Shown: piece after piece, positions 6,894 to 24,416 of the stretch
Layout: each line of letters opens with the position of its first letter
How positions within the stretch are numbered: position 1 is the first letter of the stretch
From: Terrabacter sp. Root181
GTDB lineage: Bacteria > Actinomycetota > Actinomycetes > Actinomycetales > Dermatophilaceae
NCBI RefSeq assembly: GCF_001428505.1
Contig: NZ_LMHU01000001.1
Span: 1,319,813-1,383,812, forward strand
DNA: 64,000 bases
Direction of reading: 5' to 3'
Notes under the pieces: model-generated
What the model was told of the DNA's origin: nothing
What the model saw: the letters and a program-made list of their open reading frames with translations, nothing else
Database searches by the model: none
Translations under genes and position numbers: made by a program

Positions 6894-7105
6894 TTCCTGA
6901 GATGCAGTACGTGGAGTCGACCGCTATCGAAATGGTCGGATATGACCCGGTCGACAGTGCCTTGGCGGTCATGTTCAAGGGGGGTGCAACGTACCTCTAT
7001 TCAGGAGTGCCCCAGCACCTCTACGATCAACTGATGATGGCCGAGTCAAAGGGTCTCTTTGTTAACAGGTATATCAAGCCGAACTTCCCGCCGGTGCCGT
7101 TGTAG
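6890..7105 (+). CDS. small KTSC-domain protein, third gene of the SIR2-HerA operon
   Basis: I place the start at GTG 6890, which overlaps the herA stop as GTGA and follows a strong GGAGGAGGAGG Shine-Dalgarno at 6875-6885. This gives 71 residues made almost entirely of a KTSC domain: VESTAIEMVGYD at residues 8-19, the central YLY motif (YxY) at 35-37 and FVNRYIKPNFP at the end. KTSC domains occur alone or at the C-terminus of some lysyl-tRNA synthetases; the function is unknown and RNA binding has been suggested. The strong ribosome site and overlap imply co-translation with herA, so it may be an accessory or regulatory subunit of the defence complex. Confidence 0.75.
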   Translation: MIPEMQYVESTAIEMVGYDPVDSALAVMFKGGATYLYSGVPQHLYDQLMMAESKGLFVNRYIKPNFPPVPL

Positions 7106-7315
7106 TGTTGTCTGGATGGCTTTGCGCCTGCTGCTTCAGAGCGAATCGCGGAGTCTTGGCATTCCCATTCCGGGCGTCCCTCGCCGCAAGATCGGGACGC
7201 TGCCCCGCCTGGTTGCCAACCCCTTGCAGTAGCCGATGACTGCCTGTGGTTTCGTGCGCCGAAGGTGACAAGACGTGCCGCAGCGACGGAATACGAGGTC
7301 GACGGAAGTTCAGAC

Positions 7316-7350
7316 CTAGTGGCGCGTGTAGTTAGTTGATTTACAGTTGG
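7316..7350 (+). repeat. left terminal inverted repeat of the IS630 element
   Basis: It begins CTAGTGGCGCGTGT and pairs with the reverse complement of 8421-8455, which begins CTAGTGGTGCGTGT. The outer 14 positions differ at one base and the inner part is more diverged, ending in TTGG in both. Confidence 0.85.
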
Positions 7351-8454: not shown

Positions 8455-8455
8455 G
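8421..8455 (-). repeat. right terminal inverted repeat of the IS630 element
   Basis: The reverse complement aligns base for base with 7316-7350 over 35 positions, with CTAGTGG, GCGTGT and the terminal TTGG conserved. Confidence 0.85.
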
Positions 8456-8465
8456 CGGCGTGAGC

Positions 8466-9591
8466 TCACGGGCGGAGGCCGCTAGCCACGCCGTCTTCGG
8501 GCGAGCGGGCTGCTCTAAGCCCGAGGCTTGTCGCCATGATTGACTCCGCGGCCCTGCGGGTTCGGTCTTCGGCCGTTGGCCAGAGGTGGGCGTAGGTGTT
8601 GAGAGTCGTCGTCGCTCTCGCGTGGCCCAGTGAGCGTTGGACGGTCACGACGTCGCAGCCGGCAGCGATGAGCCCCGAGGCGTAGAAGTGCGCAGGTCGT
8701 GGAGTTTGATGCCGACGAGGCCGGCCTCGCGCAGGGTCTTGCGCCACCAGTAAGCGACGGTGTTCTGGTGCGGTGGCTCTTCGCCGGCCCCGGCGAAGAG
8801 CCACCGCTGCTTGCCGGTGGTGCCGTGAGCGGCGACGTGCTCGGAGAGGACGGTGACGAGGCTGTCGGCGAGGTAGACAACGCGCTCTGATCCGTACTTC
8901 GGCGCCCGGACGTCGATGGCTCCACCGTTGACGCGCTGGACCTGGCGGGAGACCCTGAGCGATCTCCGGAGGAAGTCGATGTCGCCGAGCTGGACGCCGG
9001 CCGCCTCGCCCAGCCGCAATCCGGCGAAGGCGCACAGGGCGATGAAGGGCCGAAACCGCTCGTCGGCCACGACCATGAGCTGTCCGACGTCTTCGGGTGT
9101 GGGGATCGACATGGCGACGTCGGCACGGCGGCCGCGTGGGAGGCGCACTGTGTCGGTCGGGTCGGAGCCGATCACTCGGTCGTTGACGGCGGCGCGGAAC
9201 ACCGACCGGACGTTGAAATACCGCGTCTTGATCGTCCCGGGGGCGAGCCCGGCGGCATCCATCTGCTTGATCCACGTCTCGACGTCCGAGCGCCGGACCT
9301 CCTTCATCGGCTTCCCGGCGAAGGGCACGGATCTGGCCGCCAGCGACATCGCGAGCCTGGTGCCGGGTGCCCAGACCTGGCGGGCTGACCACTCGCCGAA
9401 GAACGCCGCGAACGTGATCCGGCCGGCCTTCGGGTCGGCGTAGGTGCCCGTGACGACGGCCGAGGTGACCGCGTCGAGCCACTGCTGGGCGTCGATCTTG
9501 CGGTCGAAGTGTCGCGAGTGCTCCTTCCGGACTCGTCGCGGTACCGCGCCCGCCACTTGCCGTTGGCTCGCTTGGCGATGTTTCCCGCCAT
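8466..9591 (-). pseudogene. tyrosine-type site-specific integrase, broken by two frameshifts
   Basis: The true start is probably ATG 9591, giving MAGNIAKRANGKWRARYRDESG, a common N-terminus of actinobacterial phage-type integrases. A single-base deletion near 9525-9530 then moves the frame to the long central part (SAM-like core-binding domain, then the catalytic Arg in FAGLRLGEAAG). A second deletion near 8689-8692 breaks the HDLRHFYAS box, because CGCCAC has become CGCAC. The last part, with LGHARATTTLNTYAH and its catalytic His and Tyr, is in another frame. Repaired, it would be about 375 residues, the usual size. It probably once acted on the ychF-end sites, but its distance from both ends (about 5 and 15 kb) is unusual. 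Confidence 0.85.
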
Positions 9592-9649
9592 GGTGATGCT
9601 CCTTCCGAGATCGCTCCATCGTCTCTCCGAGATCTGACGGCGGACAGTC

Positions 9650-9879
9650 TCAGCGGTGGTTCTGTGGACGGTTGGTCTGCTCGCTGAGCCAGAGGATGAG
9701 GTCGGCGCGCCAGTACCGGACGTGGCGGCCGAGCTCGAAGCTGCGCGGCCCGGACCCGAGGTGCGCCAGTAGCGCAGGGTGCCCTCAGGCACCCGGAGGA
9801 AGGCACAGGCCTCCTGGAGGGTGAGCATCTCGTCCCCGGCGTTCTTTGGGCGGAGAGTGGGGTGGTGTTGTGCGGTCAT
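9650..9879 (-). pseudogene. excisionase / MerR-like HTH protein, frameshifted
   Basis: ATG 9879 opens a reading frame with MLTLQEACAFLRVPEGTLRYWR, a helix-turn-helix of the excisionase type. A missing C near 9760-9764 (TGGCGCCACC reduced to TGGCGCACC) shifts it. In the correct frame it continues GSGPRSFELGRHVRYWRADL and ends at TGA 9650, giving about 76 residues if repaired. It lies 58 bp upstream of the integrase in the same direction, the classic xis-int order. Confidence 0.8.
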
Positions 9880-10052
9880 CGTGGCGCTCCTCGTTATCGG
9901 CGACAGTGAGCGTCGGCTCACGCCGGTCATCATGGGAGGGCGTTGTACCCGCCTTCGTACCCGCCCGGAGCTTCGCGTGGGAGGTACAAAGGGAGGGACG
10001 TTGGCATCGCCGCAGGTCAGGGCACGTCCCCACGAAAGTTCAGAAAATGTTG

Positions 10053-12736
10053 TCAACGCCCGACCGAGAGGCCCTTGAGCCCCGACTGACGTGACGGGCC
10101 GTGCCGTTGTTCTCGCTCTCGGTGCCGTCGTTCCCGGGCCGGTGGGGGCGCTTCCGGTCGCAGCGCGGGTCCGTACCGTTCGATGTCCTCGAGGGCGGCG
10201 TCGCGGGCGCGGGCAGGGCCGAGGTCGGACCGGTTGCGCGCGAACGCGTCGATCCACTGCTGCTTGGCGTCCTCGAGGGTCTCGGCGACCAGGTGCGCCG
10301 TGTTGCCGGCTCGGCCGCGGGTCATGGAGACGTACGCCGCTGCGGCGCCGGTGGAGTCGGTCAGGGCGACGTGGGCTCGGGGGACGGTCTCGCCCTGGGC
10401 TCCGTGGACGGTCGTGGCGTAGGCGAGCTCGACGTGCCCTCGCGCGTACTGGGCGGGGACGACCTGGTCTCGTCCCCGATCCTGGAGGGTCACCGAGCCG
10501 TCGCCGCCCACGCCGGTCACGGTCCAGGTCTGTCGGTTCGCGACGCGGAGGTCGGGGTCGTTGCGGCGCGTCGCGATTCGGTCGCCGACCGTGAGTGTCT
10601 CGCCGCGGCTGGTGGTCACCGTCGGGCGGCCTCCGGAGAGGGGATCGACGTCCGTGCGCTGCGCGCGGATGGCCGCGTTGAGGTCGGCGACCTGCTCACG
10701 GGTGTCGGCCATGACGAGGTCGCCGGCCGCACCGAGGCGCGCGAGAGCCGCTGTGCGCTCGACATCAGAGGGGTGCACGACGATCTGACCGCTTGCGAGA
10801 AGTGCGTCGAACACTTCGTCGCTTCGGTAGCCCTCGCGCATCCGGAGGCTCAGGATGGCGTAGGCCTCGTCGGTGAATCGGCGCACGGTCTCGAGGGTCA
10901 CGACCGCCGCCGGGTCCGCGTAGGCGACAGCGTGGTCGAGGACGCCGCCCCGGCCGACGGCCGGGAGCTGGTGGCGGTCCCCGATGAACGCGACCCGGGC
11001 GCCGGCTTCGTCGGCGACGGTGAGGAGCGCACGGGCGGTCTCCTGGTCGAGCATCCCGGCCTCGTCGACCACGAGCAGGTCCCCGGGTCGAAGGGCTGCC
11101 GACTCGCAGGGTCCGGGGTCGGACTGCCGGGACCAGTGCCCGTCGTCGTCCCAGCGCCAGCCGTGTTGGTAGATCAGCCACGCGGCGGAGTGTCCCTCGG
11201 CGCCGGTCTCACGCGCGGCCACGTCGGCGGCCTTCATCGTCGGGGTCACGACGACCAGTCGCCGACCGTGGTACGCCAGCTGCTGTCGGACAGAGCGCAG
11301 AACGGTGGTCTTGCCTGCTCCGGCGGCTCCCTCGACGACCACGAGGGGCGCAGTGCCCGTCAGCGCGCCGAGGGCGTCGTCGTGGACGGGCTCTTCCTGA
11401 TGCGGGGCGAGGCTGTCGGAATGTTGCAGATTGGTGGAGTGATCGGCGCGCCGGGCGATCCGGGCGATGAGGTCACCTCGACGGCCAGGACCCCAGGCGA
11501 GGTGAGAGATCGGACGTGTTCGGGGACGTCGCGTCGGGTCAGCAGCGGGGTGCAGCGCGCGACGGCCCGGGCAGTGACGTCCTCCGCCAGCTCGATCCGG
11601 GCGGCGGGGTCCGCGACGAGCGCCGTCTGGGCGAGCAGGACCTCGGTCTTCCCGCGAATGTCAGCCGTGTTCCAGGCCGACCGCCTGGCGCCGAGCATCG
11701 AGACGACCAGATCAGCGGCAGCGTCGCGGTCGATCCACCCCGGCAGCGTCCGCCGGAGGGGGACGGCGTTGGCCGAGTCTCGGTAGCCGACCTCGTGGAG
11801 CTCGCCGTTCCATCGGTCGACGAACTCGCGCCCGTCCATGGGCACAACCTTGTCGGGTCGCGCCTCCGCCCACGCCCGCCGGTCCCACACCTCACGCATC
11901 CGAGGACCCGGTTCTTGGTCGGGATGCCCGTCTCGCCAGTCGGCCTCGAGCCGGTCTACGTTGCGGCGGATCTGCGCGGCCCTGGCACTGAAGGCGCCGA
12001 CGTACGGCGCGAGCTCCCGGATCTCGCTCGTCTCGGGGTCGACGGTCAGTCCGTGCGCAGCCGGCACCGCCCGGAACTCCGGGTCGGTCGCGACGGCGGC
12101 GTGGCCGATGCCGTTGATCGCCTCGATGCTGTCCCGGACGCCGACGGAGTGGATGCCCCGCCAGGCGCTGGCCGCCCAGACGCGGGCATTGATCTGCAGG
12201 TGGAGGTGGCGGTGCGGGTCGCCCGCGCGAGACGTGTAGTGGCGGATGACCGCGGCCTCGATGGACTCGACGGGAACCTGGACCTGGCGCCCGCGAGGGC
12301 CGACGCGGGTGGTCGCGTGCGCTGCGATCCAGCTGACTATCTCGATGGCCGCCTTGTCCTGGGCTCGGTCCAGGGCTGCGGAGACTTCCGGGTACAGAGC
12401 GGCCGCAAGGGACCAGGTCTTGGGACCGTTGACCACGACCTCGACGAAGCGAATCGCGTTGTCGTCGGTTCGTATGTGGCCCTTGGCCGTCAGCGTGTCA
12501 AGGTCGATGCCGGCGACCCACTGCTCGTACAGCTCCCCGGTCATGCCGCCCAGGCTTCGCACGCCGTCGGGGGTGGCGATCAGCCGCATCGCGACGCCGC
12601 TGCCTTCCGCCAGGTAGTAGTCGTCCGCCCGCGACCGGTCGCGCTCGACGTAGGCCCGCGCGGCTCTCGGCGCTCCGCGGTAGAACTTCACCCCTCCGTG
12701 CACCCGGACCCCCGCCTTCACGATGTCCGTCGACAA
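10053..12736 (-). pseudogene. MobF/TrwC-family conjugative relaxase-helicase (TraA-like), one frameshift
   Basis: The N-terminal half is a MobF relaxase: a YYLAEG segment near the start and the three-histidine motif in GDPHRHLHLQI. The C-terminal half is a RecD/UvrD-type helicase with Walker A GAAGAGKTTVL, Walker B LLVVDEAGMLD and a late YAYVSMTRGR-type motif (here AAYVSMTRGR). A single missing G near 11472-11476 (GTGGACCTC reduced to GTGACCTC) splits it into two frames. I choose TTG 12736 as start because AGGGGTCC lies just upstream and a strong hairpin occupies 12763-12786; a longer frame to 12817 is less likely. It would nick at an oriT and pilot DNA into another cell's conjugation machinery. 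Confidence 0.85.
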
Positions 12737-12762
12737 CCAACGGACCCCTAGAAATGCCGCGT

Positions 12763-12786
12763 GGGCCGCCCGATTACGGGCGGCCC
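12763..12786 (-). repeat. perfect inverted repeat in the relaxase leader
   Basis: GGGCCGCCCG at 12763-12772 and CGGGCGGCCC at 12777-12786 pair perfectly around the loop ATTA. It lies 26 bp upstream of the relaxase start. It could be an oriT hairpin, an attenuator, or a structure that limits relaxase translation; there is no following T-run on the minus strand. Confidence 0.6.
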
Positions 12787-12827
12787 ATCTACGTCCTTCG
12801 TAGCATGGGTGCCGCATGGATGGAAGG

Positions 12828-12856
12828 CGTTGAAGGGCCGAAGTCCGTTGAAGGGC
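12828..12856 (+). repeat. 11-bp direct repeat, period 18 bp
   Basis: CGTTGAAGGGC occurs at 12828-12838 and again at 12846-12856. Two phased copies upstream of a relaxase gene suggest binding sites for a DNA-processing protein; no function is shown. Confidence 0.5.
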
Positions 12857-12872
12857 AGGAAGATTCCGAGCG

Positions 12873-12896
12873 TTGACGATAATCGATGATTGTCAA
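12873..12896. promoter_or_regulatory. 24-bp imperfect palindrome, candidate operator
   Basis: The sequence runs TTGAC..AT..ATCGAT..AT..GTCAA and 20 of 24 positions are symmetric around ATCGAT. The outline resembles operators of small winged-helix repressors of the ArsR/SmtB type, but no such regulator gene is next to it. It could control the relaxase or be part of an oriT. Confidence 0.4.
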
Positions 12897-13164
12897 TCAA
12901 AGGGTTCGTAGCGGAGGGCTGATCATGGGGTGCGGGGTGGGGCGTGTCTGCTGCGGGGTTCTATGGCTGTCGTGGTGGCCGACCTCGGGCTGATTCGGCG
13001 GTTATGCGAGAAGCATGGGCGCCCCAGGTGCGGGATCACGTGCACAGAGCACCGTGTGCCACACCGACCCAACCTGCGTCCCCAAGGGCTGACACCTACT
13101 GCCGTTATCCACAGGTGTACTCGGTGCGCTCATGGCCGTGCGCCAGGTGACCTAGCGTTGCGGG

Positions 13165-13821
13165 ATGTCGTTGAGGGTGCGGGTGCTCGCCGACGATGAA
13201 CCCTGCCAGCGACTCCTGCGGCTGGGTGCTGGCGCGCTGAGCGACGCCGAGCTCGTTGCTCTGGTCGCTGGCACCGAAGTTGAGGGATGCGACGACGTTG
13301 CCGTGGGCCACCAGCTGATACTGGAGTGTGGTGGACTGCGTGGTCTATCGATGGCCTTTCCCGAGGAGTTGATGCGATCACCCTGCACCGGACCGGTTGA
13401 GGCGGCGCGCCTGCTCGCCGCCTTCGAACTGGCGGGGCGGGCCACAGATGCGCCGACCAACCGCGTCGTGGACACGGCAGCCGCGATCGCTGAGCTGGTT
13501 TCGCCGGCGCTCGCCCGTGAGCGGCGGGAGAAGGTCGTTGTCCTGGTTGCCGACGCCGCCAACCGCGTGCTTCGCATAGTGCCTGTTGCGAGTGGCGGCT
13601 CGGATTCGAGTCCGTTGCCTGTCCGAGAGGTGCTGCACGCCGTGCTGCGGTACGACGGCCGCGCGTTCGCGCTGGCCCACAATCACCCGTCAGGTGATCC
13701 GACTCCGAGCGTCCAAGATCGTGAGGCGACGGCTGCGGCTGAACAAGCCGCCGATGCGGTCGGACTGCGGTTCCTGGACCACGTGGTTGTCGGGCGAAGC
13801 TCCTGGCGCAGCGTCAGGTGA
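13165..13821 (+). CDS. radC: RadC-family JAB/MPN-domain protein
   Basis: This 218-residue protein has an N-terminal helix-hairpin-helix-like segment (residues 15-90) and a C-terminal JAB/MPN metalloprotease-like domain with AHNHPSGDPTPS at 171-182, the His-x-His metal site and Ser/Asp typical of RadC, then DHVVVG near the end. RadC proteins are common on mobile elements and in defence islands; a role in DNA repair is doubted and the real activity is unknown. It converges on hsdS and the two overlap by 8 bp at their 3' ends. Confidence 0.85.
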   Translation: MSLRVRVLADDEPCQRLLRLGAGALSDAELVALVAGTEVEGCDDVAVGHQLILECGGLRGLSMAFPEELMRSPCTGPVEAARLLAAFELAGRATDAPTNRVVDTAAAIAELVSPALARERREKVVVLVADAANRVLRIVPVASGGSDSSPLPVREVLHAVLRYDGRAFALAHNHPSGDPTPSVQDREATAAAEQAADAVGLRFLDHVVVGRSSWRSVR

Positions 13822-14935
13822 GTTTGGCGAACGCCTTGTTCCGGGCGGCGGGAAGGATTGCTGCCCGTAGGTGTTCACGCTCTGCCTCGAAGCCCGCCAC
13901 GCGCAGCCTGCTCCGGTTCAGCGCGGCGATGCGCCGCTGAGATTCCGCGTCCGGATAGGGGATTCGCAGAGATAGCAGCGCGTCCGCGCTAACGCGCTCA
14001 CGCCGCGCGCCAATGCCTGTTGAAGTCGCCCGGAGAGCCTCCCAGAATCTCGGCCATCGACAGAGGGAGTCCACCCAATCGGGATCAACGCCCGCCTTCG
14101 GCGTGAACGTTACAAACTCCTGGGATACGACTGACCCCTCAAACCCCGGAGTTGCTATAGCGACCGCGCCCTCGAATGCCTTTAGGCGACTCATGACCAG
14201 TTGGCCCGTGTGAACGTAGCGGAGCTTGGCGTACTTCGTTTGCGACCCCGGCATTAGACCATGAGTGAAGAGGCCCCGACCGAAACTGAGAACGCCTGCG
14301 CGCTCGTAGACTGCTTCTCGATCGACAGGGAAGTCGTCCAGTTCGAGGTCCAATGCTGCCGCCAGCGGCGCATCGGGTCCCTCTCGCAGTAGGGCGTGGA
14401 TGGAGAGGTCCAGCTGCTCCGTCGTCGATGGGAACGGGCGCATGGCGGCTAGGCGGTCGAGGTGAGCGGCTACGCGCTGCTGCTCGGAGAGTTCTGGCAG
14501 ACCGATCACGATGTTCTCGAGGGCAGAGATGCTAAGGGTTCGGTTTCTGCCCGCTGAACCGGGTGAGGCGGTACGGAGTTGCGACAAGCCTGGCTCGGAG
14601 AGGAAGTAGTGCCACAGGTACCGAACATCGACTTGGTTGGCTCTGCGAGGGGTCCAGGTCATGAATCGGTGAGAGCCGATTAGTCCTCGCTCGCATTCCG
14701 AAGCGACCGCCAACGCGCCTTCCCAAGCGAAGACGTTGCTGATCACCAGATCGCCGGGCTCGATTCTGTAGACCTTCTTGCTGCCCAGTTGAGCACTAGT
14801 GGCGGCGGGCTTGTGGAAGACGCCCTTGCCGAACGAGCGGAGTCCCACCTCGACATACTCTTCGGCCGCGTCGAGCGCGACCCTGCGGCGCTGAAGCTCG
14901 AGGACATCTCCTAGCCGCACCTGATGCACCACCAT
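13814..14935 (-). CDS. hsdS: type I restriction-modification specificity subunit HsdS
   Basis: This 373-residue protein has two target-recognition domains separated by a conserved helix (LPELSEQQRVAAHLDRLAAM, residues 147-166) and ends with a second helix (SQRRIAALNRSRL). The two recognition domains look alike: TRD1 (about 31-93) has SFGKGVF, PGDLVISNVFAWEGALAVA and GSHRFMTW, while TRD2 (about 213-278) has SFGRGLF, TGQLVMSRLKAFEGAVAIA and SQEFVTF. The two half-sites may therefore be similar. HsdS selects the DNA site for HsdM and HsdR. The start shares a base with the hsdM stop (TGATG). Confidence 0.88.
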   Translation of the reverse strand: MVVHQVRLGDVLELQRRRVALDAAEEYVEVGLRSFGKGVFHKPAATSAQLGSKKVYRIEPGDLVISNVFAWEGALAVASECERGLIGSHRFMTWTPRRANQVDVRYLWHYFLSEPGLSQLRTASPGSAGRNRTLSISALENIVIGLPELSEQQRVAAHLDRLAAMRPFPSTTEQLDLSIHALLREGPDAPLAAALDLELDDFPVDREAVYERAGVLSFGRGLFTHGLMPGSQTKYAKLRYVHTGQLVMSRLKAFEGAVAIATPGFEGSVVSQEFVTFTPKAGVDPDWVDSLCRWPRFWEALRATSTGIGARRERVSADALLSLRIPYPDAESQRRIAALNRSRLRVAGFEAEREHLRAAILPAARNKAFAKLT

Positions 14936-16431
14936 CAGCCGTCGCTCCCGAGTTCATCTTGAAGGTCCCGGAGAGTCGCGAGGACCTGCTCCTCCACGGC
15001 GATGAGTTCCTTGACCAGCTCCTCGGGCGCGCGAAGCGCCAGGTCGTCGGCACGATGCGGGTTGCGGAGGTCGAGGTTGTAGCCGTCCTCCGCGAGCGTC
15101 GCGGCGTCCACCCTCCAGGCGTGTTCGTTCTCGACTCTTCGGACGCGGCCACGACCGCCCCACCACTCGGTGAGGTCGGCAAACTCTTCGTAGCGCAGCG
15201 GCTTGGTCTTCGTGTAGTTCTTCCGGCCCTCCGGGAGGGGGTGCTCGTAGAACCAGATGTGCTGCGTCGGTCCGCCGTACTCGAAGAAGAGCAGGTTGGA
15301 TGGAATGAGCGTGTACGGCGCGAAGACGCCATTGGGGAGCCGCACCACGGTGTGCAGGTTGAAGTCGGTGAGCAGCTTCTTCTTGATCCGGGCGGGCGCG
15401 CCCTCGTTGGCGAAGAGGACCCCGTTGGGGACGACGATCCCGCAACGACCCTTCTTCTTCTCAAGACGGGCCATCACCACTTGGAGAAACAGCCAAGCGG
15501 TCTCGGCCGTCCGCGAGTCCGCTGGGAAGTTCTCCAGGCTGCTGCTCTCCTCCTCACCCCCGAATGGTGGGTTGGTCAGAACGACGTCCACCCCAGCCTT
15601 CCGCTGGTCAGCCAGTGGGAAGGTCAGAGAGTTCGTGCGGGTGACGTTGGGCTGCTCTACCTCGTGTAGGAGCAGATTCATCTGGCACAGCAGGAAGGGA
15701 AGCGGCTTCTTCTCAAAGCCCATGATCGAGTCCTTGGCCTGGGCGATCTCCGCCGCGGATCGAGCCTGGGCACGCAGATGTTCGTACGCCTCGACCAGGA
15801 AGCCGCCCGTTCCTACGGCTGGATCGAGCACTGTCTGGCCCAAGCGCGGATCGACCTGCTCGACCATCAGCCGGATCACAGGTCGCGGAGTGTAGAACTC
15901 GCCGGAGTCCCCGGCAGCGTCACGCATCTCCCGCAACATCGACTCATAGAGATGCGCCATCGTGTGGATGTCGTCGGCTGATGTGAAGTGCACCTTGTCG
16001 ATCTGGTCAATGACGTCACCAAGGAGGTACCCGGACAGCATCCGGTTGATGGTCTCCTTGAACACCGACGCGAGCGTGGTCCGAGGGTCGCCCGCCTGCC
16101 CGGATCCCTCGAGCCTCGCGAGGCCCGGGAGCAGGGTGCCGTTGACCCAGTTGATCAGGGCCTCACCCTGCTTGCGCGTCGTTGGATCCGCTGCCCACGC
16201 GCTCCATCGGAGCTCCTCCGGCAGCGCCGGTCGATAGCCGGGGTCCACGATCATTCGGTTCTGCTCGAGGTCGTCGAACGCCTTCAAGAAGAGGAGCCAG
16301 GACAGCTGGGGGAGCCGATCCAGGTCACCGTTGAGGCCGGCGTCCTTGCGCATGATGTCGCGACTGGTCTTGATGACCGATGCCAGGCGCGCCTGCGGCG
16401 TCTGGGCAGCACTCTTAGCGGATGGGCTCAC
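14935..16431 (-). CDS. hsdM: type I restriction-modification DNA methyltransferase HsdM
   Basis: This 498-residue N6-adenine methyltransferase has an N-terminal helical HsdM domain (to about 150), the SAM-binding motif I DPAVGTGGF at 203-211 and the catalytic NPPF motif at 287-290. With HsdS it methylates the recognition site and protects host DNA. The GTG start at 16431 overlaps the abiEii stop (GTGA), so it is translated as part of the abiEi-abiEii-hsdM-hsdS series rather than directly after hsdR. Confidence 0.93.
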   Translation of the reverse strand: MSPSAKSAAQTPQARLASVIKTSRDIMRKDAGLNGDLDRLPQLSWLLFLKAFDDLEQNRMIVDPGYRPALPEELRWSAWAADPTTRKQGEALINWVNGTLLPGLARLEGSGQAGDPRTTLASVFKETINRMLSGYLLGDVIDQIDKVHFTSADDIHTMAHLYESMLREMRDAAGDSGEFYTPRPVIRLMVEQVDPRLGQTVLDPAVGTGGFLVEAYEHLRAQARSAAEIAQAKDSIMGFEKKPLPFLLCQMNLLLHEVEQPNVTRTNSLTFPLADQRKAGVDVVLTNPPFGGEEESSSLENFPADSRTAETAWLFLQVVMARLEKKKGRCGIVVPNGVLFANEGAPARIKKKLLTDFNLHTVVRLPNGVFAPYTLIPSNLLFFEYGGPTQHIWFYEHPLPEGRKNYTKTKPLRYEEFADLTEWWGGRGRVRRVENEHAWRVDAATLAEDGYNLDLRNPHRADDLALRAPEELVKELIAVEEQVLATLRDLQDELGSDG

Positions 16432-17282
16432 GGGTGGTTCTCCTCGGGGGTGACCGCTTCGGCGAAGAGGCGTACGGCGGTAGAGCGGGCAGTTGTGTAG
16501 TCGACGGGCAGGTCAAGCTCGGCGGCCATGGCCGCGTAGTCGAGCTGCCAGGATGCTGGGAACTCGGGGAGTTCTGCTGGCGGCGGCAACCCGTCACGCA
16601 CCTGCCATACGGTCTGGAGCCGTCCCTCGAGATCAGGGTGTGGAAGCAGTCCAGCTTCTGCGAGTAGTACGACGTCGACCAGGTCCTTGACGCGGCTGCT
16701 CGGTCGATCGCCGGCGTACGTCCGAGTCATCGCGTGGAACTTCTCGGCCGCGTGCTGGGCGACGTCCACCGCCGGCATGGCGGTGCTGCTCAGACGCTCG
16801 GCAAGGATCGGCGGATGCACCTCGACTGTGCCCACGGCACCGTCGATTTCCGCGCTCCGCGCGACGATATCGACGCGTAGCGGGGCGAAGACCTTGCCGC
16901 CGAGGAACGACGTGACGGTGAACTTCCAGCCAGGCTTGCCGGTCTCGTCGGCGGCGAGCGCTCTCGGTGCGGACACCTGGAAGGTCAGCCCGTCGTCCGC
17001 GTCGCCGTCGAGAGCATCCAATAGTCGGTCCTGCACTTCGGTACCGTCGAGGTCGTCCAGCATCACGAGGTCAAGATCCTTGGTCGCCCGCGCCTGAAGG
17101 CCGAGTCTCACCTCGAGAGCGAAGCCGCCCTTGAGCACCCAGCCGTCTGCAGCGGACAGCCGGACGAGGATCCGTTGAAAGACGAAGTGGCGACGGACTC
17201 GGTCCGGTGCGATCTCTCGCTCGGCTGCGACGTTGGCCAAGCGGTGGTTGATGCTGTCACGGAGTGCTCGGTCGACGGTCAC
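16428..17282 (-). CDS. abiEii: AbiEii toxin, nucleotidyltransferase of a type IV toxin-antitoxin pair
   Basis: I start it at GTG 17282, overlapping the abiEi stop as GTGA, giving 284 residues. It has the AbiEii/AbiGii nucleotidyltransferase signature: VLKGGFALEVRLG followed by RATKDLDLVM (GG...TKDxD), then a C-terminal helical part with VDVAQHAAEKFHAM and RVKDLVDVVLL. Toxins of this family block growth by adding nucleotides to cellular targets such as tRNA and cause abortive infection when not countered by AbiEi. A longer upstream frame exists but would run through the antitoxin gene. Its stop overlaps the hsdM start. Confidence 0.88.
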   Translation of the reverse strand: MTVDRALRDSINHRLANVAAEREIAPDRVRRHFVFQRILVRLSAADGWVLKGGFALEVRLGLQARATKDLDLVMLDDLDGTEVQDRLLDALDGDADDGLTFQVSAPRALAADETGKPGWKFTVTSFLGGKVFAPLRVDIVARSAEIDGAVGTVEVHPPILAERLSSTAMPAVDVAQHAAEKFHAMTRTYAGDRPSSRVKDLVDVVLLAEAGLLPHPDLEGRLQTVWQVRDGLPPPAELPEFPASWQLDYAAMAAELDLPVDYTTARSTAVRLFAEAVTPEENHP

Positions 17283-17872
17283 GGGGTCGTTGCTCCAAGC
17301 GCGCGCTCGATACGGAGTGCCGCACGGTCGCCAGCCCCGTCGGAGCGGGTGCGGAGCCGGCGCGCGGTCGTCAGGCCCTGGTCGAGCGCGCCAGCGACAG
17401 CAGCGTCGAGTTGCTCCTGCGTGGTGTCGCCTGCCGCGAGATCGAGCAGCGTGCGCAGCGGAGTGGTCACGCGCCAAGCGCCGTGGTCGAGGACTTCCGC
17501 GTCAGAGAGGTCGCTCGCATGCGTGACCACTGCAGGATCCACCGCTCGGAATCCTGGGGGGACAGACAGGTGTACGTGGCGCGGATCGAGCTCGCCGAGG
17601 TCGTGGACGAGCGCCGCCGAGTCGTGGGACACCACGCCACGGCCCTCGCTCCACAGGGTCCAGCGCACCCACTGGTCCTCGGGTGCTGCGGGCCAGTCGG
17701 GTAGACGGAACAGGCCACGGTCGATGCGCAGCCAGTTGCCACTATCGGCGTGGTACTTCTGAGCCTGGTAGCTGTATCCGAGGTCGAGAGCCTGGGCGGC
17801 GGTGAAGTAGCCAGCCTGGCTAAAGGCAAGGCGTTGCAGCGCCAGCCGCAGGTCTTGTCGGGTACCGGCCAT
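17279..17872 (-). CDS. abiEi: AbiEi antitoxin and autorepressor
   Basis: This protein of 197 residues begins MAGTRQDLRLALQRL and has the AbiEi-type winged helix (residues 12-55, FSQAGYFTAAQALDLGYSY then WLRIDRGLFRLP), followed by the C-terminal antitoxin domain with RTLLDLAAGD. AbiEi proteins repress their own operon and neutralise AbiEii. I choose ATG 17872 because TATGCT at 17879-17884 is a -10 box placed 6 nt upstream, giving a leaderless message; an ATG six codons earlier (17890) would start upstream of that box. It is the first gene of a four-gene overlapping series that also encodes HsdM and HsdS. Confidence 0.85.
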   Translation of the reverse strand: MAGTRQDLRLALQRLAFSQAGYFTAAQALDLGYSYQAQKYHADSGNWLRIDRGLFRLPDWPAAPEDQWVRWTLWSEGRGVVSHDSAALVHDLGELDPRHVHLSVPPGFRAVDPAVVTHASDLSDAEVLDHGAWRVTTPLRTLLDLAAGDTTQEQLDAAVAGALDQGLTTARRLRTRSDGAGDRAALRIERALGATTP

Positions 17873-17878
17873 GGTCGG

Positions 17879-17884
17879 AGCATA
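17879..17884 (-). promoter_or_regulatory. -10 element (TATGCT) for abiEi-abiEii-hsdM-hsdS
   Basis: TATGCT on the minus strand lies 6 nt before ATG 17872, the spacing of a leaderless transcript. It shows that the four genes downstream can be transcribed without hsdR. Confidence 0.5.
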
Positions 17885-17903
17885 CCTCATTCGAACTCAA
17901 CGT

Positions 17904-17915
17904 GAACTTTAGTTC
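17904..17915. promoter_or_regulatory. candidate AbiEi operator (inverted repeat)
   Basis: GAACTTTAGTTC is an inverted repeat (GAACT/AGTTC around TT) centred about 28 bp upstream of the abiEi -10 box, with a further GAACTC half-site at 17893-17898. AbiEi repressors bind inverted repeats in their own promoter, so this is the likely site. The assignment is by position only. Confidence 0.45.
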
Positions 17916-17944
17916 CACGCTGGCGAGCGTCATCAAAATAAGAC

Positions 17945-20311
17945 TCACGCTGAGTACAGCCGCCCCTGGAGTTCACTAATGGCTTGCCGCCAGCCTTCAG
18001 CACCGCCAAAGTGTCGCGCTGCTTCGACCGGTGAGCCGAAGTTGCTCAGTGGGGGCACCTGGAAGGCGTAGATGTGGGTCATCTCCTCGACGCCGTACTC
18101 CTCGTAGCGGTCGAGGAGGGCGGAGATGATCTCTCGCGCGGTCGGCACCAGTGCCTCGAGGTCGCTCGCGTGGTCCTCTCGCACTAACCGGGCGCGTTCC
18201 GCCCTCGTCCGTTGAGGGACATTCCAAGCCGCGTGTGCGAGGACGTCGAACGGGTCAGTCTCGGGCGTAAGTTCGAGGCGTCTCGACATCTCTTCGATGG
18301 ATACGCCGCGGGAGGCGAGGCTCTCTTCCAGGATTGCGCGTAGCTGGGGATCGGCCCAGCGCGCGCGAAGGTCGTCGATGGTCGGACACAGCACGCGCAC
18401 CTGGCCGGCGAGGTAGTCGGCGTACTCCACCAGACGGAGAGTGCCGGTGCTGGTGTCGGCGACGTAGTAAGCCTCGGCGGTGACGGTGACTTGCGTGCCG
18501 TCGACGTAGTACTTCCTCGCAGGCGGCTGTTCGAGCTCGCCCTCGGACTGGGTCCGGTCGAAGGAGGGCTCGGGTTCGCCAAGCGAGGGCATCTCGAGGG
18601 CAACATCCTCAGCATCACCTTCGACGACCACGCCGGACTCGTCGATGCGCTCGGTCCGGATGCGCACCGGCTCACCGTCGAAGCCCGGGTCGGAGAAGAG
18701 GACCGATGCGCCGACGTAGTCCACGATCTCGAAGGAGTACTTGCCGTTCTCTGGATAGAGTCGGGAGCCTCGGCCGACGATCTGCTTGAACTCGACCGTC
18801 GAGCCGATCGGACGAAAGAGGACGACGTACTTCAGGTCCTGGACATCGATGCCAGTGGACAGCATCCGCGATGTCGTGGCGACGACGGGTGAGGGCGACT
18901 CCGGGTCGCTGAAACGGTCTAGTTGGCGACGGCCGGTCTCGCCTTCGGCGCTGACGATCCGGACGACCCAGAACGGATCGGCTGCCACCTCGGTCGGGTT
19001 GTGCGCCACCAGGGCCTGCCGCATCTGCTCTGCATGTTCGGAGTCGACGCAGAAGACGACAGCGCGACCGGGGCGATCGTGGAACATCTGACTGAGGTGC
19101 CTAGCCGCCGCGTCCGTTCGGCGCAAGAGTGATACGACGCGCTCGAAGTCACGGGTTGTGTAGAGACCATCCGGGATGTCGCGGCCGAAGGTGTCGACCT
19201 CACCGGGTTCCGGCCGCCAGCCCTCGGCGTCCGGGGTCAAGACGATGCGCCGCACGGTGTACGGGGCAAGGTAGCCGTCCTCGATGCCCTGACGCAGGGA
19301 GTACTCGAACACCGGCTCGCCGAAGTAGTCGTACGTGTCGACGTTCTCGTCCCGCTTCGGGGTTGCAGTGAGGCCGAGGTGGACGGCGGAGGTGAAGCGG
19401 TCGAGCACTGCTCGCCAGGACGATCCGGGCACGGAGCCTCGGTGGCACTCGTCGACGATGACGACGTCGAAGAAGTCCGGCGGGTAGCCCTCGAACGTCG
19501 ACTCAGCGTCGTTGCTGTTCTGCAGCGACTGGTAGGTGGCGAAGTAGATCTCTCGTCCCATGACGGCGTGCCCTTGGATGCGCGTGGCACCCTCACCGAA
19601 CACGGGCCGGAAGTAGCCCTCTAGCGGCTGCTTGATGAGCGCGTCGCGGTCCGCAACGTAGAGGATTCGCCGGGGTTGTTCGGCATCGACGACCTGCCAG
19701 TACGAGAGGAGCTTCCAGCAGAGCTGCAGTGCAGTGAGAGTTTTGCCCGAGCCCGTGGCCATCAGCAGAAGCACCCGAGTCTGCCCGGCAAGAACCGCGC
19801 GGAGGACGCGGTTGATGGCGACCATTTGGTAATGGCGCAGCTGCCGGATGGAGCCGTCGGCGTTCGTCAGGGTCTGTGAGAGCGGCTGGGAGAGGGCCGA
19901 CCTCGCCTCATCGGCCAAGTGGTGGTGGCGCGCATAGCGGTCCCAGAGCTCGGGCGGGGTCGGGAAAGCGTCTAGGTGTCGCTCGGTCCCCGTCGAGAGG
20001 TCCCGCTCGATGATGTCGTGACCGTCCGACGCGATCGCGGTCGGAAGGTCAAGCGCGACGGCGTACTCGATGGCCTGCTGCAAGCCCTGTCCCGGGCTCG
20101 AGTACTCGCGCTTCGCCTCCACCACGCCAACGGGGAGACCAGGCACGATCTCAAGCAGGTAGTCGACCCGGCCATCGCCGCCGAGGGTTGTGTTGGTGGC
20201 AAGGTCCGAGCGGACGGCGTACTCGGTGCGGAAGCTGTCCTCCCAGCCGGACTCCACCAATCTCGGAACGACGAACTCGCGGCAGGTGTCCCGCTCGTTT
20301 CGCCCCGTCAT
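17945..20311 (-). CDS. hsdR: type I restriction endonuclease subunit HsdR
   Basis: This 788-residue protein has an N-terminal nuclease domain with Asp50 and the E-A-K triplet at 65-67 (VEAKREY, with a later QQAIEYA), followed by a superfamily 2 translocase: Walker A ATGSGKT at 185-191, DECH at 287-290, TATPKR soon after, and a late QIVGRGSR motif VI. It translocates DNA and cuts unmodified DNA together with HsdM and HsdS. It is somewhat short for HsdR but has all motifs. A TAGCCT box lies 6 nt before the ATG. A 72-bp gap with its own promoter separates it from abiEi. Confidence 0.9.
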   Translation of the reverse strand: MTGRNERDTCREFVVPRLVESGWEDSFRTEYAVRSDLATNTTLGGDGRVDYLLEIVPGLPVGVVEAKREYSSPGQGLQQAIEYAVALDLPTAIASDGHDIIERDLSTGTERHLDAFPTPPELWDRYARHHHLADEARSALSQPLSQTLTNADGSIRQLRHYQMVAINRVLRAVLAGQTRVLLLMATGSGKTLTALQLCWKLLSYWQVVDAEQPRRILYVADRDALIKQPLEGYFRPVFGEGATRIQGHAVMGREIYFATYQSLQNSNDAESTFEGYPPDFFDVVIVDECHRGSVPGSSWRAVLDRFTSAVHLGLTATPKRDENVDTYDYFGEPVFEYSLRQGIEDGYLAPYTVRRIVLTPDAEGWRPEPGEVDTFGRDIPDGLYTTRDFERVVSLLRRTDAAARHLSQMFHDRPGRAVVFCVDSEHAEQMRQALVAHNPTEVAADPFWVVRIVSAEGETGRRQLDRFSDPESPSPVVATTSRMLSTGIDVQDLKYVVLFRPIGSTVEFKQIVGRGSRLYPENGKYSFEIVDYVGASVLFSDPGFDGEPVRIRTERIDESGVVVEGDAEDVALEMPSLGEPEPSFDRTQSEGELEQPPARKYYVDGTQVTVTAEAYYVADTSTGTLRLVEYADYLAGQVRVLCPTIDDLRARWADPQLRAILEESLASRGVSIEEMSRRLELTPETDPFDVLAHAAWNVPQRTRAERARLVREDHASDLEALVPTAREIISALLDRYEEYGVEEMTHIYAFQVPPLSNFGSPVEAARHFGGAEGWRQAISELQGRLYSA

Positions 20312-20317
20312 GGCTTC

Positions 20318-20323
20318 AGGCTA
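20318..20323 (-). promoter_or_regulatory. -10 element (TAGCCT) for hsdR
   Basis: TAGCCT on the minus strand ends 6 nt before the hsdR ATG, again the leaderless spacing seen for abiEi. I see no well-placed -35 box. Confidence 0.4.
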
Positions 20324-20395
20324 TGGGACGCAGTGCCGCAAGGCCCGTCTTTCTGTCGAGCTGGGAAACCGCGTCAAACTGTCCGGCAGCGACGG

Positions 20396-21487
20396 CTACC
20401 GCAGTTGATCGGTAGGACCAAGGCCGTTGTCAGGATCCGTGTTTCGGGCGACGAGCAGCTCTAGGAGGGCCGCCAATTCATTCTTTAGGGGCGGCTGATC
20501 GGTGATTGCCGTCGCCATGAATGCCCCGATGGTTGCTTGACCGAGGTCGTCCAATAGCTCCTGTGGGGCCGACCCATCTGGCGCATGGGCTGAGCGACTT
20601 CGTTCTCGTAGTTCGCGGGCCCTCATCCGTTCTGACCAAGTAGCCACGGTGAGCCACGTCGGCCTGCCGTTGCCGGAGCTCTGTTGGATGGGTCGACTGA
20701 AGACCGACACTGCACGGTCGAGTGCGCGCACCCGCCGGACGCGGGGGTCGTCCACCTCCCCTAGCGTCGACGCAGTTACGCTCATCTCGCGCCAGATCGC
20801 TTGCTCGTCATGCGCGGTGAGTTCGACGGGTTCGCCGGGATCAAAGTGATCGATCGAGGTGCCGACGTCAGTAATCCATGCCCAGGACATTGACCAGGAG
20901 GGCGGAGCCCCGACTCTTGAGTCCGTGGCAACCTTGACCGACCAGTTGTGCATCCCCTCGAGCTTCGACTTTTGCACGGCAACCGGACGCCTAGACCCAA
21001 CGGGACCCCCAGAGCCGCGACCCCTCGCCTCAATCCCGTGCCATCCAGAACTTGTCTGAACGATGAAGTCAGGGCGGCTACCAGACGCGACGTACAATGG
21101 GGAGGTCTTGCTGAGCCGGTCGGCGTCCAGGATGGCTCGGAGAGGATCCCAGCCGTAGACGGACGCCGACTCGATCGCGATGCAAAGGCCCAAGGATTCG
21201 GTCAGGAAGCGCGACATGTGAGACGGGGAGGACATGGCTACACCGCTCCAGCTGAGGGCAACGCCTGGCCGCCAGTTGGTGTTTTCCAGGAGGAGGGCAG
21301 TTTCCGCGGCAACTGTGAGTAGCGTCGGCGGTGCATATGGCCGACGGACGACGAAGGCCGAGACGAAAGGCCACCACGTTGGTCGAACCTGCCACGTCTT
21401 GTCCGCGACGTGCGACCACACTCCAGCTGGAACCGTTGGGGATGAGGGAGATATGCATTGGTAGGTCCGTGCCGCCGCGAATGCCAT
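20396..21487 (-). CDS. unknown protein with restriction-nuclease-like signature, member of a divergent pair
   Basis: I do not recognise this family. From ATG 21487 it has 363 residues (a TTG six bases earlier is possible). The N-terminal third is hydrophobic but has no clear membrane helix. The middle has SRPDFIVQTSSGWHGIEARG, where Asp140, Glu153 and Arg155 form D-X12-E-x-R, close to the PD-(D/E)XK nuclease pattern with Lys replaced by Arg; Glu106 in CIAIESA could be the helical Glu. Trp- and Arg-rich segments follow. It lies 84 bp upstream of hsdR in the same direction and diverges from the 831-residue gene at 21602. A nuclease or DNA-binding role in defence is inferred. Confidence 0.6.
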   Translation of the reverse strand: MAFAAARTYQCISPSSPTVPAGVWSHVADKTWQVRPTWWPFVSAFVVRRPYAPPTLLTVAAETALLLENTNWRPGVALSWSGVAMSSPSHMSRFLTESLGLCIAIESASVYGWDPLRAILDADRLSKTSPLYVASGSRPDFIVQTSSGWHGIEARGRGSGGPVGSRRPVAVQKSKLEGMHNWSVKVATDSRVGAPPSWSMSWAWITDVGTSIDHFDPGEPVELTAHDEQAIWREMSVTASTLGEVDDPRVRRVRALDRAVSVFSRPIQQSSGNGRPTWLTVATWSERMRARELRERSRSAHAPDGSAPQELLDDLGQATIGAFMATAITDQPPLKNELAALLELLVARNTDPDNGLGPTDQLR

Positions 21488-21601
21488 GGGCAATCATATT
21501 CGCGACTGGTGCCAGTCGGCGCCCCGACGGGGCGTGGTCAAATGGCGCGGTCCACGCGGCCAAGTCCCCAAGAGTGACCTGACTGGCGATAGAACTATCC
21601 C

Positions 21602-24097
21602 ATGTCCGTCTCGACCCCGGCTCTCGACTACGCCGCAATCGACCTGATGTTGCGCGCTCCGCGCGTTGCCGTGATTGTCGATGGGTCCGACAAGGCATGG
21701 GTGGCCGCCGCGCGTATCGCGCTGGCCCAGAGCTCGGAGGTCTGGGGCGGCGCAGGATTCGTGCTAGTTCCCCATCATGATGGCAAAGTCGGCCGAACCG
21801 TTCTCAAGGCCGTAGTCGCCTTTGACCCGGACTATGTGGCGACTTCTGCGCGCACGATCGCCGAGCGCGAGGCGGCTGCTCCGGGTGCTCTTGTGCTTGC
21901 CGAGGAAAATGGCGCTCCCATCACGGGCGAGGAACGCGTTGAACTTATCGCGCGGGTCGGCGAGCAGGAGGTCTTCGACGAGCTCGCTGCCGCTGCTCGA
22001 GACACCGTTGTCGCCGCCTGCAGCCCTCATCGCATGCGGGGAGAGGACGAAGAGGGAGAACCGGTGTGGGACGACCCGCTTCATCAGCTCAGCAAGGCGG
22101 ACCCCACGGGATCAGGGCTGACCCACGTCGACAGGCTCCGTGCGTTCGCCGCCAAGGCGTGCTTAAGTGCACCTCCGGCCTGGGGTGGTGCACTCGGCCT
22201 CCTTACTGCAGCAAAGCTGGGTGCGGTGCAGCGTCCCGATCTCACGCCGAGCCCCCCGACGGTGACTGGCGACGCCGCAGTCTGGATGGCCGCTTGGCTG
22301 CAAGGGGTGTTCACCCTCGTTCCTCCGGAGGCGAGTGAGCTGATCGCTAATCCGTCGGGGGGCGCGACGTTCGGATTCCAGGTTGAACAGTTGCCGCAGG
22401 CCTGGCACAACTCCCGGGCCGGGCTGACTACGGTCAGTGTGGGTAGCACACGCCATAACCCGGCATGGGTGGTTGTTGGTGACTCGCCCGACGACTTCGC
22501 TCTCTGGATGGTGCTCGACCGGCTCTACGGACACGCCGCATGGCTTCACCCTGACTGGTTCTCAGCAGACAGCGATGAGTCACACGATGTTCTCGACTCG
22601 ATCGCCCACGACTGGCAGCGAACAAGACGCGGTATCCACGTCTGTTCAGCTCGTGCAGACCAGGCAGACGTCCTCGCGGTCCGTGACCTCCTACAGGGCG
22701 CGATCGACAACCCGCGGCCGGGCCGGAACCGCTCCCGAAAGCGAACAGTCGCCGCCGGCGACATCCCTTGGAGCTACAACGGGTCGCTGACCCTCGCAGT
22801 TCGCGACAACTTCAGCGCCGAGTTCCCTGTCCCGGTCCACCGAGACGGGGAAGGGGGAGTCGAGATGGTGATGAAGCCACCCGGCCCCACGCTCGCCAGC
22901 TCCGTTGCCCGCGAGGGCAGCCACGGCTTCAGCTGGCAGGTGGAGCTGAGTTTCGACGGGTCGGTGATGCCTCGCGGGCGCGGGCTGCTTGGCCGCGAAA
23001 TTTGCGTCGAAGGACAAGACCCGGCCCACACCTACATCCGGAGTAGCCGGGCGGGTATCACCTGGCATTCGGAACGGTACGACTTCACGACGCCCGGGAT
23101 GGCACCGGACCAGCAAGTCGCGCGACCCAAGGTCCGCGAGCTCTCGCTCAGCGACTGGGTGGAGGCCATGAGCAGGCAGCGTGGCTACACGACCCAGCAC
23201 TCGGCATCCGGGATCAGCGCGCAGGTGCTCGCCACGCTTTGGGGCGGCCGCGGGCAGATGATCGACGACCTCGCAGGCCAGTGGAGCAAGGTTCTGCGGC
23301 TGTTCGGTCCCGCCGGCGCGGCAGGTAGCAAGGGAAGCAGTGCGACCTACGAGGAGGGACATGGCGTGGTGATCACCGGTCACGGCGGCGTCCTTACCTT
23401 CAAGGGCATCGCGGGGTGCTGGGCCGATGATGTGGAGCCCGGGGAGGTCCGTATGCAGGTGGATCGCCTTGTCAGCGGGCGGGTCCTCCGCCGAGGGCTG
23501 GCCCTCCTCTGCGCCGAGTGTCGCAAGGCGGCGTTCGTCGCGGTCGACGAGCTCTCTCAGACCAACCGCTGTGCCAGCTGCTCCGCCAACAACGACCTTG
23601 ATTTGGCCGCATGGAAGAAGCCCGACGACGAGCCCCTGTGGTTCTACGACCTCCATCCCGTCGCCCGCGAGCTCGTGCTGATGAACGGCGTCGCCCCGCT
23701 TGCAGCCGCTCACCACATCAAAGCATCGTCGAAGTCCTTCACCGACGCCGCAGAGACCGAACTGGTTAGCGGCAGCAAGCCGGTCGCAGAGACAGACGTG
23801 CTGATCCACGCCGATGGCTCGGTTGTCACGGGTGAGGTCAAGACCACCGACCAGCTCCACAGCAATGGCAAGGAGCGTGTGAAGGCCGCCGGCAAGCGGG
23901 CACTCTGGGCCGACGTCCTCAGGGCCGACGAGATCGTTCTCGCCACAACCCGGGACCAGTGGGTCCAATCGTCCGTCACGGCGATGACCGACTGCATGGC
24001 CTCATACACATGGACAACTCCGGGCCATCGCCCACGACTACGTCTCCTCACCGGCGTTGGTGGACCCGCGGTGGGGTCCGAGTACGTCGACTGGTGA
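21602..24097 (+). CDS. unknown large protein with four-Cys zinc ribbon and PD-(D/E)XK-like C-terminal domain
   Basis: I do not recognise the family of this 831-residue protein. The N-terminal part has RVAVIVDGSDK at 21-31, then VWGGAGFVLVPH and VAFDPDYV, a pattern with an alpha/beta look. The middle (about 200-620) is featureless to me. A zinc ribbon is clear: Cys637-AE-Cys640 and Cys657-AS-Cys660. It is followed by HPVARELVLMNGV, a helix with Glu718/Glu720, and AETDVLIHADGSVVTGEVK, giving Asp732-X12-Glu745-V-Lys747, a good PD-(D/E)XK active site. It is therefore probably a nuclease. It occupies the right end of the defence island and diverges from a second protein with a similar motif. Confidence 0.65.
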   Translation: MSVSTPALDYAAIDLMLRAPRVAVIVDGSDKAWVAAARIALAQSSEVWGGAGFVLVPHHDGKVGRTVLKAVVAFDPDYVATSARTIAEREAAAPGALVLAEENGAPITGEERVELIARVGEQEVFDELAAAARDTVVAACSPHRMRGEDEEGEPVWDDPLHQLSKADPTGSGLTHVDRLRAFAAKACLSAPPAWGGALGLLTAAKLGAVQRPDLTPSPPTVTGDAAVWMAAWLQGVFTLVPPEASELIANPSGGATFGFQVEQLPQAWHNSRAGLTTVSVGSTRHNPAWVVVGDSPDDFALWMVLDRLYGHAAWLHPDWFSADSDESHDVLDSIAHDWQRTRRGIHVCSARADQADVLAVRDLLQGAIDNPRPGRNRSRKRTVAAGDIPWSYNGSLTLAVRDNFSAEFPVPVHRDGEGGVEMVMKPPGPTLASSVAREGSHGFSWQVELSFDGSVMPRGRGLLGREICVEGQDPAHTYIRSSRAGITWHSERYDFTTPGMAPDQQVARPKVRELSLSDWVEAMSRQRGYTTQHSASGISAQVLATLWGGRGQMIDDLAGQWSKVLRLFGPAGAAGSKGSSATYEEGHGVVITGHGGVLTFKGIAGCWADDVEPGEVRMQVDRLVSGRVLRRGLALLCAECRKAAFVAVDELSQTNRCASCSANNDLDLAAWKKPDDEPLWFYDLHPVARELVLMNGVAPLAAAHHIKASSKSFTDAAETELVSGSKPVAETDVLIHADGSVVTGEVKTTDQLHSNGKERVKAAGKRALWADVLRADEIVLATTRDQWVQSSVTAMTDCMASYTWTTPGHRPRLRLLTGVGGPAVGSEYVDW

Positions 24098-24397
24098 ACG
24101 ACCCGCGAGATTCGAGCCACTTCGAGGCGATGCCAACCAAGACCGCTAGGGGCGTGCACCAGGGTGGTGCTGCGGTGACCGAAGGCCGACAAGTAGGCCC
24201 GGACACTGCTCGGTGCCTCTTTGGCCCAAGGGCCCTCGCGGTGACCCAGCGGTCCGCAAACAGTCCGCAAGAAGTCCGGCCGAGACCGACGATCGCTGAC
24301 GACGTCCAACGCTTCCACGACCGCGTTTCCGCAGGTCAGACCGCATTCGCCGACATCGACTAACCATGCCCAACGACCACCGTTATCCCGCGTGATC
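24098..24397. other. non-coding right end of the island
   Basis: I find no gene in these 300 bp. The only recognisable element is the 24-bp double repeat at 24252-24275. The region separates the unknown nuclease-like gene from the right attachment core. Confidence 0.5.
24252..24275 (+). repeat. island-end repeat, right copy (two GTCCGCA units)
   Basis: It matches 3588-3611 at 23 of 24 bases, in direct orientation, and lies 122 bp inside the right core. The paired copies near both ends suggest integrase arm sites. Confidence 0.6.
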
Positions 24398-24416
24398 GTT
24401 CCGCTTCAACGTCTGA
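24398..24416 (+). repeat. right attachment repeat (attR core)
   Basis: This is an exact 19-bp copy of the last bases of ychF (3526-3544), including the TGA, but with no ychF coding sequence before it. It marks the right boundary of the island. Confidence 0.85.

Follow-up and report, generated by a model that had tools for sequence, protein, structure and literature searches.

A Putative Single-Protein Sensor-Nuclease on a Mobile Element of Terrabacter sp. Root181 and Its Relation to Can2/Card1

The 64,000-nucleotide stretch of Terrabacter sp. Root181 DNA analysed here (contig NZ_LMHU01000001.1, positions 1,319,813 to 1,383,812; hereafter the window) contains an integrative element in which two divergent genes encode proteins A and B. 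An earlier note on this DNA regarded the pair as a possible new defence system, whereas our analysis points to protein A on its own. It is an 831-residue protein (21602..24097, plus strand), in which the open reading frame (ORF), an alignment of relatives, and an AlphaFold model indicate a Rossmann-like region, a zinc ribbon, and a PD-(D/E)XK nuclease. With slightly better than even confidence, we consider protein A to be a single-protein sensor-nuclease of immunity, carried as swappable mobile-element cargo in Actinomycetota. The nuclease fold and its active site, the zinc ribbon, the lack of a family-wide partner, and the mobile defence context are supported by the data presented below. The A family, an unnamed nuclease family whose nuclease domain is nearest to that of Can2/Card1, is a good candidate for single-gene defence.

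The Nuclease Domain of Protein A

Residues 697–829 of A (23690..24088, plus strand) correspond to a PD-(D/E)XK nuclease domain in the AlphaFold model and in Foldseek comparisons, and this assignment, predicted from alignment and model, is near certain. The active site E730-x-D732-x12-E745-x-K747 (23789..23842, plus strand) was recognised by its conservation and by a spacing shared with Can2. The alignment comprised 26 rows, i.e., the window protein and 25 relatives at 23–37% identity; the start was missing from three rows, one of them 506 aa long. E730, D732, E745, K747, and K765 are invariant in all 26 rows, E718 is present in 25, and the E-x-D-x12-E-x-K spacing is kept in 25, with x14 in the remaining one. 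The four cysteines of the zinc ribbon (Cys 637/640/657/660; residues 637–660, 23510..23581, plus strand), placed by the earlier note before the nuclease motif of A, are likewise invariant in 26/26 rows.

Nuclease-like D-X12-E-x-[K/R] motifs had been proposed for both proteins. When each sequence was shuffled 2000 times, the bare pattern arose in 25% of the copies of A and in 11% of those of B, so motif statistics alone were discarded as evidence of a nuclease. The motif of A nevertheless counts as more than chance, because it is invariant across the 26 rows; that of B does not rise above chance.

The model of A, built from the 26-row alignment, has a mean predicted local distance difference test score (pLDDT) of 83.7 and a predicted template modelling score (pTM) of 0.85, and it bears out the nuclease fold suspected earlier. 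Ten-residue blocks of the nuclease domain reach a pLDDT of 92–97, save three at 87, 88, and 89. The alpha-beta core consists of a helix (697–708), strands within 713–747, a second helix (756–773), and a further strand (777–782); this core fold, together with the conserved catalytic motif, places A in the PD-(D/E)XK superfamily. The ten top Foldseek matches of A in the PDB, reported with a best E value of 1.7e-3 and a probability of 0.94, are all Can2/Card1 proteins. A fold search of viral models with A gave several weak matches annotated as PD-(D/E)XK or restriction nucleases, none at E ≤ 0.001.

Sequence searches proved far less informative. Neither A nor B matched Pfam, PADLOC, or NCBIfam at E ≤ 1, in agreement with the earlier description of both proteins as unrecognised, and PDB sequence searches found nothing convincing for A (best E 0.35; 0.078 for B). 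When all 26 members of the A family were scanned against Pfam, UPF0102, Hjc, NERD, and AHJR-like were each touched by one or two members (best E 0.004–0.16), as was the Card1 endonuclease family, the best E values of all five ranging from 0.004 to 0.24. The first four are nuclease-only domains, and such weak matches to PD-(D/E)XK families lend nothing to the N-terminal region of A. A distant member of the family (locus L020, 18% identical) matched the PADLOC Csx1 'ARF+Nuclease' model (7e-5) and CARF_PDDEXK (1.4e-4), in its nuclease domain only; among five other members scanned beside it, one matched CARF_PDDEXK (0.0075), one a cyclase (0.026), and three gave no match. A promoter and terminator scan of positions 20250–24450 returned no signal above chance.

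Distribution and Neighbourhoods of the A Family

Relatives of A were sought with two conserved peptide patterns, each species being represented by a single genome, and confirmed by tblastn. The pattern scan yielded 25 A loci, all in records named as actinobacterial genera, which include Nocardioides, Kribbella, Rhodococcus, Nocardia, Frankia, and Streptomyces, and three plasmid records carry an A relative. A match was found in 9 of 394 genomes of the class, near full length in six (the Root181 genome being counted in both), and in one of nine genomes of the genus, namely its own. The family is thus patchy in Actinomycetota. The window protein clusters in the tree with proteins of Kribbella and Nocardioides (support 98/96); its end branch measures 1.11, compared with a median of 0.35. 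No relatives of A, B, or the distant member were detected in viral contigs searched with exact peptide patterns, nor in phages. A description of protein A was not found among the titles and abstract openings consulted. The nuclease of PMC12799240 was considered as a counterpart and set aside, as the part of that article consulted describes a different, metallo-beta-lactamase (MBL) fold.

Two records in this collection deserve separate mention. One locus (L021, 9530–9973) contains a 147-aa ORF that resembles only the nuclease end of A and is possibly a remnant or a free-standing nuclease. Another (L025) is titled Rhodococcus sp. IEGM 1381 and bears a cyanobacterial lineage label in the tree; one of the two looks wrong.

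Near the 25 loci, 177 genes were called and the 79 nearer ones scanned, in a descriptive survey with no control loci. Among the matches listed for these 79 neighbours were one CBASS-type cyclase, one SAVED-HNH effector, two members of QatA, PD-T4-6, TIR, KAP NTPases, two phage-type integrases, and several transposases. Of ten neighbours scanned singly, the one at L028 gave a QatA-like match, that at L034 resembled a type IV restriction helicase, that at L039 resembled a type IIG enzyme, and that at L027 matched a candidate system. EAD1-STAND-type genes lie near A in Frankia nepalensis (L031) and in a genome of the same family group (L017), the former with a TIR protein as well.

Proposed Mode of Action and Alternatives

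Two stretches of the N-terminal part of A, delimited by the secondary structure of the model and by conservation, appear Rossmann-like; in the model itself they span residues 22–82 and 288–348. The first, residues 18–82 (21653..21847, plus strand), is a beta-alpha-beta-alpha-beta stretch with conserved R18, R21, W33, W48-G49, P57, and P76-D77. The second, residues 288–351 (22463..22654, plus strand), has conserved loops with G293-D-x-P-x-D298-F299, W314, and S349-x-[S]351; position 351 is R in the window protein and S in the remaining 25 rows. The nearly invariant loop residues of both stretches would suit a ligand pocket, for which 288–351 is the candidate.

We infer the trigger and the defence function of A as follows. 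The first 600 residues, with the two Rossmann-like stretches, would act as a sensor that keeps the nuclease silent. Binding of an infection signal to this sensor, the ligand probably being a nucleotide or a nucleic acid, would turn the nuclease on. The zinc ribbon probably serves to grip nucleic acid or to couple one domain to the other. The C-terminal domain would be a metal-dependent nuclease of the Can2/Card1 type, with E730, D732, E745, and K747 as its predicted active site. By analogy with Can2/Card1, described in the part of PMC9704534 consulted as cutting nucleic acids indiscriminately once activated, active A might cut or nick DNA, or both DNA and RNA, regardless of sequence. The outcome would be the arrest of a phage or plasmid, possibly at the cost of the cell. 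Protein A presumably functions without B and without Cas10, because both are absent elsewhere.

Several observations weigh against this scheme. Conservation and secondary structure are the basis for assigning a sensor role to the first 600 residues. All PDB fold matches of A lie above E 0.001 with low template modelling (TM) scores, so the similarity to Can2/Card1 holds at the level of domains only. A CARF_PDDEXK or Csx1 match is absent in four of the six members scanned, the window protein has no PADLOC match, and in another tally one of ten rows was matched. No case of the N-terminal region of A joined to another effector was found in 389 genomes, although this search was weak, since genome G391, the source of one query row, was missing from its matches. 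Lacking a control set, the tally of neighbours is descriptive only; household genes (glycyl-tRNA synthetase, MFS, AhpC/TSA) are among them, and of the ten neighbours scanned one by one, six matched no defence family.

A more specific scheme, possible though rather doubtful, would make A the representative of a Cas10-independent, one-protein class resembling Can1 and Can2, whose double Rossmann region senses a new infection ligand directly and which needs no cyclase gene of its own; A would then be a candidate relative of the CARF nucleases.

That A is a strict CARF effector is unlikely; in this reading, a cyclase elsewhere in the cell would supply the cyclic oligonucleotide to which the Rossmann region binds. 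The top fold matches are Can2/Card1 proteins activated by cyclic tetra-adenylate (cA4), and eight of the ten top alignments span at least 500 columns, gaps included, which exceeds the nuclease alone. The single CBASS-type cyclase and the single SAVED-HNH effector among the matches listed for the 79 neighbours also fit this reading. However, the Cas10 palm domain (PF22335) was found in 0 of 23 genomes, of which 21 carry A, one the distant member, and one only a fragment, several of them being drafts. In a control run of the same search, 5 of 14 known genomes gave the domain, including E. coli, where a Cas10 palm match is unexpected. Additionally, the GGT[KR] motif of Can2-type CARF domains occurs in only 1 of the 26 A rows, at residue 146 and thus outside 288–351, and the CARF_PDDEXK sequence matches are confined to the C-terminal part.

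We give an equally low probability to the view that A is a direct-acting, modification-dependent restriction enzyme of a type IV-like kind, with the ribbon and the N-terminus detecting foreign DNA for cleavage by the nuclease. The size of the protein, its combination of a zinc ribbon with a PD-(D/E)XK domain, and its location in an island with restriction genes are in line with such a role, yet no known modified-base reader domain appears among the Pfam matches of the 26 members at E ≤ 1.

Protein B and the Question of a Pair

Protein B (20396..21493, minus strand) has 365 aa when read from a TTG start or 363 aa from the ATG at 21487, two codons on. The coordinates, lengths, and named residues that the earlier note gave for A and B are correct, its 363 aa and Asp140 referring to the ATG form. 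In that form the motif reads Asp140/Glu153/Arg155, which a motif search places at D142-x12-E155-x-R157 in TTG numbering (21023..21070, minus strand). The 114-bp intergenic region described earlier likewise applies to the ATG start and shrinks to 108 bp with TTG. The frame of B has the top coding score of the six frames; this score is weak (0.08 versus 0.23 for A). The frame stays open for 365 codons, whereas the longest run among 500 base-shuffled copies was 289. Because the frame is the best of the six and longer than any shuffled run, B probably represents a genuine gene whose codon use is unusual.

No relative of B was found in 394 class genomes (E ≤ 0.001), in eight other genomes of the genus (E ≤ 0.1), or on plasmids, and the 149 family genomes gave weak matches only, in five genomes at E 0.012–0.08. 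A structure model from the single sequence reached a pLDDT of only 35, too low to be of use. As judged from these sequence searches, B is an orphan.

These data bear on the reading of A and B as a true two-gene module, with B as a regulator, an immunity partner, or a second nuclease, that moved in together. The divergent arrangement across a 108–114 bp gap speaks for it, as does a sister element (L099), which replaces both genes as one segment, from window position 20331 to 24247. Nevertheless, a B relative was present at 0 of 30 other A loci (tblastn, best E 0.19). Across 31 A loci, 18 sequence groups occur in at least three: A itself, its shadow frames, transposases, and one membrane/helix-turn-helix (HTH)-like family, the last at four Frankia-group loci, about 2–8 kb from A, and not elsewhere among the 31. 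With no B at the other loci, no partner recurring beside A family-wide, and no convincing relative of B in the collections searched, A and B were rejected as a conserved two-gene system, the survey thereby speaking against the new paired system proposed in the earlier note, and we regard even a local module as improbable.

A TnsA-like reading of A was also considered, as one relative, from Kitasatospora, has a Mu-type transposase and an ATP-binding protein next to it; it was dropped because this arrangement is not repeated at three or more loci.

The Mobile Element Carrying A and B

Genes A and B lie within an integrative element of 20.9 kb (3526..24416) that uses the 3′ end of ychF as its insertion site. 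A 19-bp direct repeat marks its two ends, with one copy at 3526–3544 (the 3′ end of ychF) and the other at 24398–24416. The element is absent from this site in two congeners: in one (G397) the flanks at window positions 3544 and 24502 meet, 2 bp apart, and in the other (G395) positions 3544 and 24491 are about 0.6 kb apart. In a further congener (G400; L075, 2885–3561), an integrase-like stretch with 70% DNA identity to window 8563–9247 follows ychF, and this is perhaps another element at the same site.

The variable slot with B and A (20331..24247) was delimited by blastn comparison with the sister element (L099, genome G287). The latter has the same backbone, with 85% DNA identity over 5.4 kb in the hsd-AbiE region and a matching end. 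Similarity of the backbone ends at 20331 and resumes at 24247, and because the sister element has other genes between these points, A and B appear to occupy a swappable cargo slot. There, L099 (1783–3656) carries a 165-aa protein without a Pfam match and a DUF7669 protein.

The surroundings are rich in defence genes, as the earlier note recognised in describing a defence island beside hsdR. A SIR2-HerA defence pair, SIR2 (3850..5103, plus strand; PADLOC SIR2, 9e-108) and HerA (5103..6893, plus strand; PADLOC HerA, 1e-145), occupies the end opposite to A and B. Family matches identify a radC-like gene (13165..13821, plus strand) and, on the minus strand, hsdS (13814..14935), hsdM (14935..16431), the AbiEi antitoxin (17279..17890), and the type I restriction subunit hsdR (17945..20311), which adjoins B. 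The AbiEii nucleotidyltransferase toxin (16428..17477, minus strand) has an uncertain start, its family match beginning near residue 67–102 of the longest frame. The AbiEi/AbiEii toxin-antitoxin pair thus sits inside a type I restriction operon, and the order hsdR-AbiEi-AbiEii-hsdM-hsdS was found in six of nine loci fetched by AbiEi similarity; these nine were taken from a set of 22 other genomes that matched AbiEi. That B, which lies on the same strand directly upstream of hsdR, is an accessory of type I restriction and part of the hsd-AbiE operon is very improbable, as none of these nine loci has a B relative (E ≤ 0.001) while the operon recurs in six.

The element also holds a KTSC gene, a DDE transposase, a tyrosine integrase, and a TrwC relaxase and helicase. 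At 8466–9806 and 10053–12817 (minus strand), the integrase and probably also the TrwC/TraI-like relaxase-helicase each appear to be broken across two frames, so the element may no longer mobilise itself.

Comparison with Known Systems

Protein A resembles Can2/Card1 in its C-terminal PD-(D/E)XK nuclease and, in the model, in a Rossmann-like region that precedes it. The E-x-D-x12-E-x-K spacing is identical to that of the one Can2 sequence compared, whose active site reads E276-x-D278-x12-E291-x-K293. In the part of PMC7969007 consulted, E276 and D278 are the active residues of Can2 and the E276A/D278A exchange abolishes its activity. In contrast, A has 831 aa as opposed to 366–439 in the PDB chains, contains a zinc ribbon, and has no TGGTK-like CARF motif in the candidate region 288–351. 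The sequence matches to CARF_PDDEXK are restricted to the C-terminal part of the family's proteins, and A may still have a divergent CARF fold. Judging from alignment and model, the cutting end of A should act like Can2, and CARF identity is at most putative. As Cas10 was found in none of the 23 genomes, A seems to be Can2-like without the known activator of Can2.

A search for comparison sequences with PF09002 (Card1 endonuclease) gave a match in 1 of 198 genomes, under the curated cut-off. Separately, an actinobacterial Can2-like ORF (L108, 775–1953) has the TGGTK motif, and its residues differ at the ExK position of Can2.

Like Can1, A is a long single chain in which two Rossmann-like stretches are combined with one nuclease at the C-terminus; Can1 is described in the part of PMC9704534 consulted as monomeric, with two CARF domains and a C-terminal nuclease. 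Unlike Can1, A has no recognised nuclease-like middle domain and was found in genomes in which Cas10 was not detected, and Can1 is absent among the 50 listed PDB fold matches of A.

The second messenger of type III CRISPR is known to act through effectors such as Can2 and Card1. If the proposed role of A is correct, the same nuclease motif, joined to a much larger N-terminus and found without Cas10, would illustrate how an effector of this kind operates with another trigger. Actinomycetota would also gain a one-gene defence candidate that is overlooked by the defence models searched.

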